A DNA stretch of 64,000 bases, from NCBI RefSeq assembly GCF_000299395.1, contig NC_018656.1, positions 744,001 to 808,000 on the forward strand, given 5' to 3'. A model generated the notes under the pieces. The model worked only from the letters and a program-made list of their open reading frames with translations. It was not told the origin of the DNA and made no database searches. This DNA is from Candidatus Nitrosopumilus sediminis. Its GTDB lineage: Archaea; Thermoproteota; Nitrososphaeria; Nitrososphaerales; Nitrosopumilaceae. The translations under genes and the position numbers were made by a program. This document shows, piece by piece, positions 2,473 through 57,460 of the stretch (within the stretch, counting starts at the first letter, position 1; the number at the start of each line of letters is the position of its first letter).

Positions 2473-3726
2473 TTACTTTTTAATTCGTTCAATTCTTATT
2501 TTCACTGGTAGGTTCTTTACGACTTTCTCAACAACTATTCTTAGTTTTTCTAATTCTAATTTATCTCCTTCTTGAGGGATGTCTTGTAATTTTTCATGTA
2601 ACAACCCATTTAGCGTACTATAATCATCCCCTTCTGGTAATTCTGATTTAAAAATTTCATTAATTTCTTCAATTTCAATATCGCCTGTTGTAATAATCGT
2701 ATCTTTATCTATTGAATGATACTTGATGGATTGAGGAGAGTCTGTTTCGTCTTCAATGTCTCCAAGAATCTCTTCGATAAGATCTTCTAATGTTACTAAT
2801 CCCTCAACTCCTCCATGCTCATCTATCACGATTGCCATGTGTGTTTTTCTACCTTTCATTTCTCTTAGTAATGAAGTAACCCTTTTTTCTTGAGATACAA
2901 AAACAGGGGTTCTCGAAATTTGCTCTAATGTCTTCATCCGGTTATCTGATTCAAGCTCTCTGAGCACATCTCTTACATGAATAAATCCTACTATGTCGTC
3001 ATGTGTTTCATCATAAATTGGAATTCTAGAATGTGAGTTTTGATTAATTATTGGAAGTGCCTCAAACAACAACATCTTAGCCGGAAGTGTTTGCATTTTT
3101 ATTCTTGGAGTCATTACTGCACGAATTACGGTATCATCAAATTCTAATGCTCTGTGTAATAGATCTCGTTCTTGGCTTTCTAATGCTTCATCTCTATGTC
3201 CTTGATCAATAATCCCCCTGATTTCATTTTCAGTTAATGCTGGTGGATAATAATCACTTCCAGTTATTTTGATCATTACACGGGTGATCCTCTCCAATAT
3301 CCACACTATCGGGTAAGTAGCATAACTGAACATTAGTAGAATACCACTTGAACGAAGTGCAACTTTAGTTGCATTAGCATTACAATATGTTTTGGGAGTT
3401 ACTTCTCCAAAAATTATTATCAAAAAGGTCATAATTCCAATGGCAATTCCAAGCCCATTATCACCAAATAGTTTAATTGCAACTACCGTAGCTAACGCAG
3501 ATGAACCAATATTCACTAGGTTGTTGCCCAGGTTTACTGCTGACATCATCCAACCTGGATTTGATTTGAGTTTTTGAAGTGCTTTAGCTCCACGTCTTTT
3601 CTCTTTTACTAGTTGTTCTACAGTGGCTTGACTTGTACCAACCAATGAAACTTCTAATCCACTAAAAAAACCAGATAGCCCAATTAACGATGCTAATGCA
3701 GTAAGCTCTAACCACAATTCTACCAA
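2473..3726 (-). CDS. CorC/HlyC-type (CNNM-like) membrane protein with CBS pair
   Basis: The 417-residue protein has the three-part layout of the CorC/HlyC (CNNM/CorB) family: an N-terminal DUF21 transmembrane domain (hydrophobic spans around residues 8-25, 55-75, 85-108 and 125-148), a tandem CBS pair (about 195-320, including RIPIYDETHDDIVGF and VIDEHGGVEGLVTLEDL), and a C-terminal CorC_HlyC domain (about 330-410). Family members are linked to Mg2+/Co2+ export or magnesium homeostasis; the exact substrate here is unknown. The gene converges on gapdh with one base between the stops. No frame damage. Confidence 0.9.
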   Translation of the reverse strand: MVELWLELTALASLIGLSGFFSGLEVSLVGTSQATVEQLVKEKRRGAKALQKLKSNPGWMMSAVNLGNNLVNIGSSALATVVAIKLFGDNGLGIAIGIMTFLIIIFGEVTPKTYCNANATKVALRSSGILLMFSYATYPIVWILERITRVMIKITGSDYYPPALTENEIRGIIDQGHRDEALESQERDLLHRALEFDDTVIRAVMTPRIKMQTLPAKMLLFEALPIINQNSHSRIPIYDETHDDIVGFIHVRDVLRELESDNRMKTLEQISRTPVFVSQEKRVTSLLREMKGRKTHMAIVIDEHGGVEGLVTLEDLIEEILGDIEDETDSPQSIKYHSIDKDTIITTGDIEIEEINEIFKSELPEGDDYSTLNGLLHEKLQDIPQEGDKLELEKLRIVVEKVVKNLPVKIRIERIKK

Positions 3727-53895: not shown

Positions 53896-54252
53896 TTATG
53901 AAGATTTAGGGTTTACAGTGTTTGAATACAGATTAAGGCTAGGTTCCAAATCATCCAAAGTTATTTCGACTTTTCCTATTCTACTTCTGTACAATTTTAT
54001 TTTTTTACCTTCTGGAGATATAACAAATTTATCAACTTCAGCCAAGGCAAGATCTTCTAATGTGGACAATGTTTTGTATACTGTGGAAAGTGAAATTTTC
54101 AATTCATCTGCAATTTGAGTTGCATCTTTTGATTGTGTTTTCACTGAAAACAAGACAGATCTAGTACAAACATTGCTTAATGATTCAATGATTTTTTGCG
54201 TAATATCAAATTCAGACAATTGAATTATGGTAGGTTTTTGCAATTTTATCAC
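53896..54252 (-). CDS. Winged-helix regulator, paralogue 1
   Basis: The 118-residue protein (start GTG 54252) has a winged helix: FDITQKIIESLSN, TRSVLFSVKTQSKDATQIAD, ELKISLSTVYKTLSTLEDLAL, then a wing KFVISPEGKKIKLYRSRIGKVEI. It is a close paralogue of 54253-54582 (DITQK..E.L, YK.L..LE.L.L.EV, KLYRSRI), and the two are adjacent with no gap. The position upstream of phnD on the same strand, and the shared repeat, make it the candidate regulator of the phosphonate operon. Confidence 0.75.
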   Translation of the reverse strand: MIKLQKPTIIQLSEFDITQKIIESLSNVCTRSVLFSVKTQSKDATQIADELKISLSTVYKTLSTLEDLALAEVDKFVISPEGKKIKLYRSRIGKVEITLDDLEPSLNLYSNTVNPKSS

Positions 54253-54582
54253 TCAGTTTGGGATCAGCGTAAGAACAGGTTCAGGTTTTCTGATAGAAAT
54301 ATCTGCTTTGCTGATTCGGCTTCTATACACCTTGTACTTTCTACCCTTATCAGATAGCATCCATTTTTCAACTTCAATTAATGTCAGTTCTTCAAGATCA
54401 GTTAATTTTTTGTATACAGAGCTGAGAGGAATTTTTAGTTTATCTGAGAGCTCTGCAGCAGTGTTTCCTTTTTTAATTATTGAAAACAAAATTGCTCGAG
54501 ATTCAGAATCAGCTAAAGCTTCTATTACTTTTTGGGTAATGTCATATTTTTTTAATTGTGGTAAAGTTAATTTCCGCGACAT
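54253..54582 (-). CDS. Winged-helix regulator, paralogue 2
   Basis: ATG 54582 (MSRKLTLPQLKK) is preferred to 54606 because the TATA-like TTTAAATATATG lies about 26 bp upstream. The 109-residue protein has the same winged-helix layout as its neighbour: YDITQKVIEALADSESRAIL, AELSDKLKIPLSSVYKKLTDLEEL, wing MLSDKGRKYKVYRSRISKADI. The stop TGA abuts the GTG start of 53896-54252. Its promoter carries the same TCATTC-N10-GAATGA repeat, suggesting autoregulation. Confidence 0.75.
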   Translation of the reverse strand: MSRKLTLPQLKKYDITQKVIEALADSESRAILFSIIKKGNTAAELSDKLKIPLSSVYKKLTDLEELTLIEVEKWMLSDKGRKYKVYRSRISKADISIRKPEPVLTLIPN

Positions 54583-54603
54583 GCAAATAACAAAAATATC
54601 AGT

Positions 54604-54616
54604 CATATATTTAAAC
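54604..54616 (-). promoter_or_regulatory. TATA box of the tandem regulator genes
   Basis: CATATATTTAAAC (plus strand) gives TTTAAATATATG in the transcribed direction, centred about 28 bp before ATG 54582. The operator-like repeat (54632-54653) is 16 bp further upstream, as in the phnD promoter. Confidence 0.5.
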
Positions 54617-54653: not shown

Positions 54654-55382
54654 TTATGAATATTGTTCAGTTTTCTGATCAGATTTAAAGCGATTCCAAA
54701 ATAATCCCAAAATTATGCCTACAGATATCCAAAATGAACTTACCCCAAGCATAGACATTAATCGGAATTCATTTACTAGACTCATTGGCGCAGTTATCTC
54801 ATCAGGGTTTTCAGGCATGATAAAGAAAACTGCAGATATGAAAACACCATAGCCAACTAGCGAGAGGAGTTTTTTATTATTTTCAAATTTCTTCGATAAT
54901 TTGTAAAAAGCAAGTGCGCCAATTCCCGAGATTGCAATAAATGACAGATATAGAATTGCCCTTAATACAACAGTTTCACCATCACCCACAGTTGGAGGAT
55001 TTGCAGGATATTTGAGAAAAGGTATCAAGTACAAAGTAAACCACATTATGGCTGCCAATAATAGAGATTTTTTTACATCATGATTGCCTGGAAGCGAATT
55101 TCTAGATAAAGCAAATACAACACCAAACAATGAACCGATAGAAACCCCTAAAATTATACCAGCTAAAATTTGACCACTTTTTTGCCAGATTCGATATCCT
55201 TCATATTCTACCCAAAACTCTGGTGAATTTTCTGCTTCACCAGATGCAAAGAGATTTTGATTTTCAATTCCAATTGCCTGATCAAGATATGGTTCTACAA
55301 TGGCAAAATTAACAGTTCCATGAATTAACCCTGCAAAAGCACCAGAGATCAACACAATTACAATAAATTGAATGGTTTTCAT
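54654..55382 (-). CDS. cbtA: Cobalt transporter subunit CbtA
   Basis: The 242-residue membrane protein has about six spans (MKTIQFIVIVLISGAFAGLIHG at the start, GQILAGIILGVSIGSLFGVVFAL, LLLAAIMWFTLYLIPFL, then AILYLSFIAISGIGALAFY). It matches the CbtA family, proposed as a B12-linked cobalt transporter with CbtB. It follows cbtB (55392-55607) by 9 bp. Fits an organism that makes cobalamin. Confidence 0.85.
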   Translation of the reverse strand: MKTIQFIVIVLISGAFAGLIHGTVNFAIVEPYLDQAIGIENQNLFASGEAENSPEFWVEYEGYRIWQKSGQILAGIILGVSIGSLFGVVFALSRNSLPGNHDVKKSLLLAAIMWFTLYLIPFLKYPANPPTVGDGETVVLRAILYLSFIAISGIGALAFYKLSKKFENNKKLLSLVGYGVFISAVFFIMPENPDEITAPMSLVNEFRLMSMLGVSSFWISVGIILGLFWNRFKSDQKTEQYS

Positions 55383-55391
55383 TTACATCAC

Positions 55392-55607
55392 TCAATGGCA
55401 AGGAAAGCCTGCTGCATGTCTCATGTCATGAGTTAGTTCATGAATATAGAGGTCAGTAAATGCCTGCTCGCCATAAACTAGACTAAAGATATGACCTTGA
55501 TCAAATCCAACAACAAACAATCCTGCTGCAAATACGATAGCCAATGCAAGAATTGCTAGTTTTGAAACACTTGTTTTTGAGACAGTAATTTGTCTTGGTT
55601 CAGTCAA
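55392..55607 (-). CDS. cbtB: Cobalt transporter subunit CbtB, copy 1
   Basis: The 71-residue protein has one membrane span (LAILALAIVFAAGLFVVGF) and a His-rich C-terminus (HELTHDMRHAAGFPCH) that should bind cobalt. The start is TTG 55607 and the stop TGA. It is identical to copy 2 at 56327-56542 in residues 3-71 and over 210 bp of DNA (55394-55603), while the start codon, first base of codon 2 and stop codon differ. Next to cbtA in a leftward operon. Confidence 0.88.
   Translation of the reverse strand: MTEPRQITVSKTSVSKLAILALAIVFAAGLFVVGFDQGHIFSLVYGEQAFTDLYIHELTHDMRHAAGFPCH
55394..55603 (-). repeat. 210-bp identical repeat, copy A (cbtB copy 1)
   Basis: Identical base for base to 56329-56538. 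The identity begins at the last base of the stop codon and ends at the second base of codon 2, then stops abruptly in both directions. Confidence 0.95.
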
Positions 55608-55640
55608 TGTTTTTTTCGAATTTAAAGATTATTTAAAGCG

Positions 55641-55657
55641 TTGGATGTTTTATCCAA
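55641..55657. promoter_or_regulatory. TTGGAT-N5-ATCCAA inverted repeat between cbtB and its regulator
   Basis: Perfect 6-bp arms (TTGGAT 55641-55646, ATCCAA 55652-55657) with a 5-bp spacer. It sits exactly between two divergent TATA-like boxes: ATTTAAAG (leftward, 55630-55638) and TTTATATATTAAA (rightward, 55658-55670). Bound protein could repress both cbtB and the regulator gene. Confidence 0.55.
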
Positions 55658-55685
55658 TTTATATATTAAAAAAACAATGCTAAAC

Positions 55686-56321
55686 ATGCAACAAGAAATC
55701 AAAACATTGCAAAACATCGTCACAAGAAAGGGGTCTAGCAAAGTATTGACATTTAGTGCACCACATGTTTTAAAATCCATTTTTTGTTTTGCAAATCAAA
55801 AATATGTTAGCAGAGCCACGTTTTGTAAAGAAATCCATTTGGGAGAAGGAGCAGTCAAGACATTGATTTCACATTTAAAAGAATATGGGATTGCATCATC
55901 CATAAAATCAGGAACATTTCTTACAAAAAAAGGAATAAAATTTGCAACAGAATTTTACAATGCTTTACCATCTCAAGGGTTCTTAAAAAAATGCAACATT
56001 ACTAATGGCAAATATAATTATGCAATTTTGTTAAAGAAAAACTATATTTCAAAGATAGGGAATGGGATGCAACAAAGAGATTATGCGATTCTGTATGGAG
56101 CAAGTGATTCATTGACATTGATTTTTAAAAACAATGAATTTATTTTTCCAGTAGATGGTAGGATTTGTTTTGCAGATGAGCATAAAACAAAAAATGCTCT
56201 GATAGACATATTGAAACCTGAAAATGAAGACATAGTAATTATTACATCATCTGATGATAAATTTGTGGCAGAAATATCAGCCATCAATACGGCATTATGG
56301 ACACTAAGAAATGAAAAATAA
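55686..56321 (+). CDS. Transcriptional regulator with DUF4443-like C-terminus
   Basis: ATG 55686 (MQQEIKTLQN) is chosen because the TATA-like TTTATATATTAAA (55658-55670) is about 22-26 bp upstream; ATG 55677 is close. The 211-residue protein has an N-terminal winged helix (VLKSIFCFANQKYVSRATF, GEGAVKTLISHLKEYGIA, SIKSGTFLTKKGIKF) and a C-terminal region (RDYAILYGASDSLTLIFKN, FIFPVDGR) like DUF4443. It lies between the two cbtB copies and diverges from cbtB copy 1. Candidate cobalt or cobalamin-responsive repressor. Confidence 0.75.
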   Translation: MQQEIKTLQNIVTRKGSSKVLTFSAPHVLKSIFCFANQKYVSRATFCKEIHLGEGAVKTLISHLKEYGIASSIKSGTFLTKKGIKFATEFYNALPSQGFLKKCNITNGKYNYAILLKKNYISKIGNGMQQRDYAILYGASDSLTLIFKNNEFIFPVDGRICFADEHKTKNALIDILKPENEDIVIITSSDDKFVAEISAINTALWTLRNEK

Positions 56322-56326
56322 GACTA

Positions 56327-56542
56327 CTAATGGCAAGGAAAGCCTGCTGCATGTCTCATGTCATGAGTTAGTTCATGAATATAGAGGTCAGTAAATGCCT
56401 GCTCGCCATAAACTAGACTAAAGATATGACCTTGATCAAATCCAACAACAAACAATCCTGCTGCAAATACGATAGCCAATGCAAGAATTGCTAGTTTTGA
56501 AACACTTGTTTTTGAGACAGTAATTTGTCTTGGTTCAGACAT
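56327..56542 (-). CDS. cbtB: Cobalt transporter subunit CbtB, copy 2
   Basis: Start ATG 56542 (MSEPRQITVSK), stop TAG. The 71-residue product differs from copy 1 only at residue 2 (Ser for Thr). There is no cbtA next to it. It converges on the regulator gene with 5 bp between. Its own upstream region (56543-56600) is unrelated to that of copy 1, so it is expressed separately. Confidence 0.85.
   Translation of the reverse strand: MSEPRQITVSKTSVSKLAILALAIVFAAGLFVVGFDQGHIFSLVYGEQAFTDLYIHELTHDMRHAAGFPCH
56329..56538 (-). repeat. 210-bp identical repeat, copy B (cbtB copy 2)
   Basis: Identical to 55394-55603, offset 935 bp, same orientation. No terminal inverted repeats, target-site duplications or transposase frames flank it, so a duplication or gene-conversion event is more likely than a mobile element. 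Confidence 0.95.
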
Positions 56543-56686
56543 AAAAAACATGATTCTCTGTTTATATTAAAACTCTTGGGTGCTGTAAAAAATATAAAAA
56601 AGCTAGAATTTAGTCACGAAAATCTGTTATTATAAGATCTTACATACTGTTGTTTTTGATAGATTTTTTCGAAGAAAATTTGTAAA

Positions 56687-57460
56687 ATGAATAATTTAGG
56701 AATAAGAACAGAGGATAAAGAATACAAAAATAAGATTTCAGATATCATACAAGGCGAATTAATTGATCTGTACGGGACAAGTGGATACAAGTCAATCATG
56801 CAAACAATGACAAAAGTTTCTGGAAAAACAGAAAAAGAGATAATTACGAATTTTGAATTGTTTTCAGGATTATCAGAAGGGGTTTTTGGAAAATCATCAG
56901 AATCAAAAATTTTAGATCCAATTAAAATGAAAATAGATGTTATCGGAATGGAAAACATACACCAAGAGAAAAAAATAGAGAAAAAATCTATGAGAATATT
57001 AATTGCAGACGATGAAATAGAAATTCTAGAACTATACAAAGCATTTTTGGAAGGAAAGGGAAAAGAAGTCACCACCGCAACTGATGGTCGTAAATGTATT
57101 GACGCATACAAGAGATTTAATCAAAATAAATCAAGAGATTATTTTGATGTTGTAATACTTGATCAAAAAATGCCATTTATGACAGGACTGCAAGCTGCTG
57201 TCGAAATATTAGAAATAAATCCGCATCAAAGAATTATTTTCGCTTCAGGATATCTTGAAAAGACATTACTCGAAGTATTGACAAAACTAGATAAGGCAAT
57301 TGCTGTAATCGAAAAACCATTTTCACTTGACGTGCTAGACTATATGATAAACAATTCAGAAATATTTGAAAGATTAGATAAAATCAACATCAATCAACAA
57401 GAAAGAGACATCAATGAAAAAATGACAGAAATCATGACAGTATTACAAAACCCCATCTAG
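56687..57460 (+). CDS. Response regulator with N-terminal extension
   Basis: The 257-residue protein has an unassigned helical N-terminal part (1-100; EYKNKISDIIQGELIDLYG, GYKSIMQTMTKVSGKTEKEI) and a receiver domain (102-230): Asp108/Asp109 (LIADDEIEI), phosphoacceptor Asp159 (VVILDQKMP), and a conserved Lys (VIEKPFSL). The N-terminal part could bind a partner kinase or a chemoreceptor. No kinase is adjacent. Confidence 0.8.
   Translation: MNNLGIRTEDKEYKNKISDIIQGELIDLYGTSGYKSIMQTMTKVSGKTEKEIITNFELFSGLSEGVFGKSSESKILDPIKMKIDVIGMENIHQEKKIEKKSMRILIADDEIEILELYKAFLEGKGKEVTTATDGRKCIDAYKRFNQNKSRDYFDVVILDQKMPFMTGLQAAVEILEINPHQRIIFASGYLEKTLLEVLTKLDKAIAVIEKPFSLDVLDYMINNSEIFERLDKININQQERDINEKMTEIMTVLQNPI

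Follow-up and report, generated by a model that had tools for sequence, protein, structure and literature searches.

How can two neighbouring genes be identical over 210 bp of coding sequence when nothing around them is alike? The two cbtB genes of Candidatus Nitrosopumilus sediminis raise this question. In the window, by which we mean the whole 64-kb stretch of DNA analysed here, positions 55394-55603 and 56329-56538 match at 210 of 210 bp, as the original prediction had stated; their start-to-start spacing is 935. This 210-mer occurs at exactly two places in the genome (one contig of 1.69 Mb), which contains just two cbtB genes, and no other pair of repeats of at least 50 bp was found in the window (exact seed of 18). 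Such an exact match far exceeds what chance can produce. On the coding strand, the identical tract takes in everything from base 2 of codon 2 up to and including the T that opens the stop codon; its earlier description as beginning at the last base of the stop codon applies to the plus strand only (55394 and 56329). Immediately outside the tract, the predicted differences were all found: the start codons are TTG in copy 1 and ATG in copy 2, codon 2 is ACT versus TCT, and the stop codon is TGA versus TAG. The four flanks around the copies are distinct and without mutual relation, as had also been claimed.

For the locus and its relatives, we use "A" for the resident kind of cbtB and "B" for the kind found in a DUF4443-cbtB-cbtA module. 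The features are:

54654 to 55382, minus strand: cbtA, 242 amino acids, A-type, in the A clade of the cbtA tree (PF09490, 2.8e-56).
55392 to 55607, minus strand: cbtB copy 1, in the B position next to cbtA; 71 amino acids, TTG start, TGA stop (PF09489, 43.1 bits).
55394 to 55603, minus strand: presumed converted tract of copy 1, the probable recipient; identical to 56329-56538.
55641 to 55657, no strand: palindrome TTGGAT-N5-ATCCAA, a proposed operator for DUF4443, in the promoter region between the divergent DUF4443 and cbtB genes.
55641 to 56321, plus strand: DUF4443 gene with a winged-helix-like N-terminus, between the copies (PF14544, 1.6e-25).
56327 to 56542, minus strand: cbtB copy 2, the A-position gene, adjoining the response regulator; 71 codons with ATG at 56542 and TAG stop (PF09489; the 74-aa ORF scores 43.5 bits).
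56329 to 56538, minus strand: presumed converted tract of copy 2, the probable donor; its nearest sequences in other species are mostly A-type residents.
56687 to 57460, plus strand: response-regulator gene flanking copy 2 (PF00072), the same neighbour in many relatives (resident synteny).

On the plus strand, the order is thus cbtA (-), copy 1 (-), DUF4443 (+), copy 2 (-), response regulator (+), a DsbA-like gene (+) and a gene labelled eRF1, the last two labels coming from a reading of the sequences. Both cbtB copies score above the PF09489 cut-off of 27 and below the cut-off of 64.4 for NCBIfam TIGR02459 (28.2 and 33.7 bits). Judging from the family names and the adjacency of cbtA, the product is a putative cobalt-transport subunit. 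The listed ORF of copy 2 starts at 56551; homologues start at the MSE of 56542. The DUF4443 gene is divergent from copy 1 and tail-to-tail with copy 2, and matches PF22167 weakly (26.9 bits, under the cut-off of 30.2); by inspection, an ATG at 55677 or 55686 is a likelier start than the listed TTG, which lies inside the palindrome. Two adjacent HTH genes at 53896-54606 encode proteins about 47% identical to each other, and such a pair adjoins cbtA in most relatives with enough flank; we saw no sign of homogenisation between these two genes. Transposition was considered as a source of the repeat and rejected: the gene between the copies encodes DUF4443 rather than a transposase, and a search of the window gave no inverted repeats of at least 50 bp. 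The original prediction likewise saw no transposon structures.

A search of the genus gave a cbtB match in 80 of 95 genomes, with one genome per species and a few weak or contig-end places left out. In what follows, G numbers denote genomes (G000 is the window genome) and L numbers loci. The resident locus is syntenic in the genus (a phosphonate-type binding protein, two HTH genes, cbtA, cbtB, ..., DsbA, eRF1) and in many genomes includes a response regulator and/or DUF4443 between cbtB and DsbA. Some genomes carry elsewhere a second module, DUF4443 with cbtB and cbtA, with a divergent promoter. Among the matches listed, at least seven species have two cbtB genes 0.9-1.3 kb apart, in one of two layouts. 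Layout 1 (cbtA, cbtB-B, DUF4443, cbtB-A) is found in G000, G054 (presumed contig JAILWG010000001), G076 (JAOULD010000011), G014 (LFLC01000065) and at L078 (RKRY01000147), with remnants in G044 and G071. Layout 2 (DUF4443, cbtB-B, cbtA, cbtB-A) is found in G032 (JABSRD010000004) and G088 (CALBNQ010000222). Since the same two positions, with the same kinds of flank, are present in other species, the duplication predates the identity.

The original prediction had proposed comparing the copies in related strains for concerted evolution, and this comparison bears the idea out: six of the seven linked pairs among the matches listed are homogenised within their own genomes, with position-specific flanks, the exception being L078. 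Over codons 26-71 (138 nt), the two copies show no difference in G000, G054 and G088 and a single difference in G076, G014 and G032. In 25 comparisons of copies that are unlinked in their assemblies, 9-43 nt differ (the lowest values being 9 in G017 and 15 in G236), and between genomes the median is 28 differences over 5640 comparisons, with 0-1 in only three. These statistics cover 107 cbtB genes, the indel-bearing L168, L170, L171, L186 and L188 and the B copy of L078 being left out. Across the same codons, the A copies of the six species differ from one another by 13-23 synonymous and 0-11 other changes, versus 0-1 synonymous differences within genomes. Thus, paralogues are closer than orthologues at synonymous sites, while promoter and post-stop types show the flanks to be orthologous by position.

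The extent of the identity varies on the 5' side. Over codons 2-25, 22-41 of 72 nt differ in five linked pairs, versus 1 in the window. G054 and G014 have their last main difference at nt 73, G076 at 75, G032 at 40, G088 at 49 and the window at 4, with one further single difference kept in each of G076, G014 and G032. In the five relatives, then, the identity reaches the stop codon at one end but breaks off at nt 40-75 at the other, leaving the first ~13-25 codons different in five of the six homogenised species. The statement that identity ends at the reading-frame limits is therefore correct for the window but does not hold as a generality, as in the five relatives it ends inside the gene.

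In a FastTree tree of the C-terminal part, the two copies are sisters in 6 of 6 linked pairs versus 2 of 25 unlinked comparisons; in the N-terminal tree, the window pair alone among the six is sister, and the other five split into A versus B. When the longest matching run of polymorphic columns was permuted, it was equalled in 0 of 20000 permutations for five pairs; the window pair, with two differences in all, gave 25 of 20000. Among the 25 unlinked controls, three reached ≤5 of 2000 (two in G017 and one in G067). The AU tests, on 97 rows (ten further genes of distant genomes left out), have low power with their 138 and 72 columns. For codons 26-71, a single clade of the six B-position copies is rejected (p 0.00048); a clade of the four layout-1 B copies alone is not significantly rejected (p 0.09), in a low-powered test in which the program left identical rows free. 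For the N-terminal block, a clade of the 26 B-type rows without the window copy is not rejected (p 0.545), and forcing copy 1 of the window into it costs 40 log units (p 0.062, again at low power). The p values of 0.09 and 0.062 weigh against the conversion reading.

The flanks suggest which copy was overwritten. The motif TTGGAT-N5-ATCCAA lies upstream of B copies, starting about 50 nt before codon 1; 41 of 42 cbtB promoters that face a divergent DUF4443 gene have it with 0-1 mismatch, versus 12 of 71 others. Right after the stop codon, GTGA, which we take for a putative cbtA ribosome site, follows 14 of 24 unlinked B genes, 1 of 61 unlinked A genes and all four homogenised layout-1 B copies, including copy 1 of the window. 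Copy 1 thus has a promoter and post-stop junction of B type and a coding sequence of A type, so that an A-type gene sits inside B flanks; in copy 2, promoter and coding sequence are both A-type. From this we infer that in the window A sequence replaced B. Layout 2 shows the opposite: there the C-terminal half is B-type in the A-position copies. The distribution of the palindrome makes it probable that DUF4443 binds DNA and regulates cbtBA; our literature search found no paper containing the term DUF4443.

We consider it very probable that the identity of the two copies is the product of gene conversion between old paralogues, with A sequence written over the B gene. This is one of the two options in the original prediction, and within-genome homogenisation between position-specific flanks supports it. 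The resident cbtB (A, copy 2), beside the response regulator, would be one old paralogue, and the B gene (copy 1) would have arrived with a DUF4443-cbtB module that inserted between the resident cbtB and cbtA, with a right junction either within the 5' end of cbtA or close to it. The two genes would then have formed direct repeats about 0.9 kb apart in one replicon, and homologous recombination, the presumed route, could have copied one repeat into the other non-reciprocally. Because the flanks are never homologous, the tract would be confined between the start and stop codons, which is where the identity ends. In the relatives, conversion would usually stop within the diverged N-terminal ~25 codons; this block is probably too diverged for easy conversion, which may explain why most tracts end there. 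In the window, conversion appears to have replaced the N-terminal codons as well, leaving only the start codon, the codon-2 base, the promoter and the post-stop junction as B-type remainder. Among linked pairs, the window is thus the extreme case of conversion. Taken across species, the alignments show what appears to be recurrent overwriting when two copies sit close together.

The histories of the genes around the copies are less simple. In a tree of four flank proteins, the carriers of the layouts are scattered, and G000 and G076 are sisters (support 0.945). The layout-1 DUF4443 genes form two groups, G000, G014, G044 and G071 (0.935) and G054, G076 and L078 (0.973), which conflicts with the flank-protein tree in that the sisters G000 and G076 are split. 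Either the layout is old and has often been lost, or cassettes have moved between species. From the split of G000 from G076 (loci L114, L112, L113 and the window), it may be that the cassette with the regulator was itself exchanged between species, the cbtB repeats on either side serving as homology arms. Direct repeats could also delete the intervening DUF4443 gene, and the remnants in G044 and G071 fit such a loss.

These conflicts also favour the most serious competitor of gene conversion, in which the DUF4443 module entered through a crossover within cbtB, with a sister chromosome as partner, giving identical resident C-terminal halves in one step and without any later conversion. Scattered carriers, the separation of G000 and G076 in the DUF4443 tree and a 5' border of identity that varies as crossover points would are all expected from such an event. 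We nevertheless judge it improbable. All four homogenised B copies of layout 1 have a B-type post-stop junction; with B sequence on either side of an A-like coding block, a second exchange would be needed. The B-type C-terminal half of the A-position copy in layout 2 also speaks against it. Less likely still, and contradicted by the position-specific flanks, is the other option of the original prediction, that the coding region was simply duplicated very recently and then acquired new flanks. It would account for complete identity between unrelated surroundings, but in other species both positions exist with matching flank types, and the TTG start of copy 1 is common to the same position in G054, G014 and L078. 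The duplication is not younger than the split from the relatives, as layout 1 with its position-specific flanks recurs in G054, G076, G014 and L078.

The assembly itself could be suspected, either of duplicating one copy or of merging two near-identical copies into one consensus, the more so as several of the relatives are MAGs. Against this, the window genome is a single contig, the four flanks all differ, and the start and stop codons are specific to each position; the same pattern recurs in six independent assemblies, three of which have one retained difference. We give an artefact no more credit than a recent duplication. Least credible of all is selection alone as the force that keeps the copies identical. 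The C-terminal His-rich segment is indeed strongly conserved in protein sequence, but 13-23 synonymous changes between species versus 0-1 within genomes are not what constraint would produce.

Several loci depart from the general picture. At L078, a layout-1 locus with a spacing of 937, the B copy is diverged (45-47% amino acid identity to the window query) and unconverted; the pair escaped conversion, and the B copy is either decaying or new in function. In this copy (3441-3665), which lies beside a B-type cbtA, parts of the conserved His-rich C-terminus are gone. In G017, the cbtB copies of L123 and L135, on different contigs, have in common an exact 111-bp 3' run; this bin contains two resident-type loci (its third cbtB locus, in L190, is of resident type), and the run may reflect copies that are really linked, long-range conversion, or a mixed bin. 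A rearranged locus in G018 (L164, 2478-2690) has a single cbtB with an A-type N-terminal and a B-type C-terminal half beside a B-type cbtA, and its composition suggests that such an exchange has become fixed there.

Could conversion have a functional direction? In 6 of 6 homogenised pairs, the type of the C-terminal half is that of the local cbtA, A in the four layout-1 pairs and B in the two layout-2 pairs, although the B call for G088 rests on close distances (24-25 against 22-24). One possible reading, which we put forward tentatively and hold to be rather unlikely, is a selected rewriting of domains: the partner-facing half of CbtB would be overwritten time after time to match whichever CbtA type is retained, while a separate N-terminal tail and promoter would provide two regulatory inputs to one transporter. 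With only two layouts, the agreement is suggestive only. Mismatched loci exist, so that the correspondence between C-terminal and cbtA types can serve as a hypothesis only: G048 has a B-type cbtB beside an A-type cbtA, G057, G117, G132 and G134 also depart, and L078 has an intact A-type copy beside a B-type cbtA. If true, this would be recurrent paralogue conversion in archaea outside the methanogens, with its direction set by the partner gene and its rate by distance.

Gene conversion of this kind has precedents. The closest is mtrA-1/mtrA-2 of methanogens, neighbouring archaeal paralogues with conserved synteny in which a terminal or transmembrane part is distinct and, according to PMC4632066, one domain is homogenised per species by recurrent gene conversion. 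As there, one part of cbtB is distinct and one homogenised; the gene and phylum differ, homogenisation in the window extends to the whole gene and not just to a domain, the homology between cbtB copies spans no more than ~140-210 bp, and a regulator-like gene lies between the copies. In the tuf genes of Salmonella, as described in PMC5485169, the conversion tract likewise stops where the repeated gene ends, but these are long, nearly identical housekeeping duplicates whose conversion was measured experimentally, whereas for cbtB it is read from sequence. Wang and Chen (2018) listed 26 recurrently converted prokaryote genes, the seven archaeal ones all from methanogens, and required that paralogues resemble each other more inside a species than across species, in no fewer than five species (PMC6053082); cbtB, with six species, is absent from the tables there. 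Among the papers found on gene conversion in Thaumarchaeota, on concerted evolution in ammonia-oxidising archaea and on CbtA/CbtB in archaea, including Nitrosopumilus, none deals with the present case, by title or abstract start. Given the mtrA precedent, the absence from that list and this literature, we file cbtB as a further case of the same kind as the concerted evolution of mtrA and tuf.

The cbtB pairs thus amount to a small natural experiment on gene conversion in archaea, with several species, two layouts and unlinked pairs as controls, in which tract borders are visible and the flanks record which copy was overwritten. Through the palindrome beside DUF4443, a putative cobalt-uptake operon of ammonia-oxidising archaea also gains a candidate regulator that can be tested. 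The pairs are, in addition, a warning that cbtB trees in this genus mix the history of the gene with conversion.
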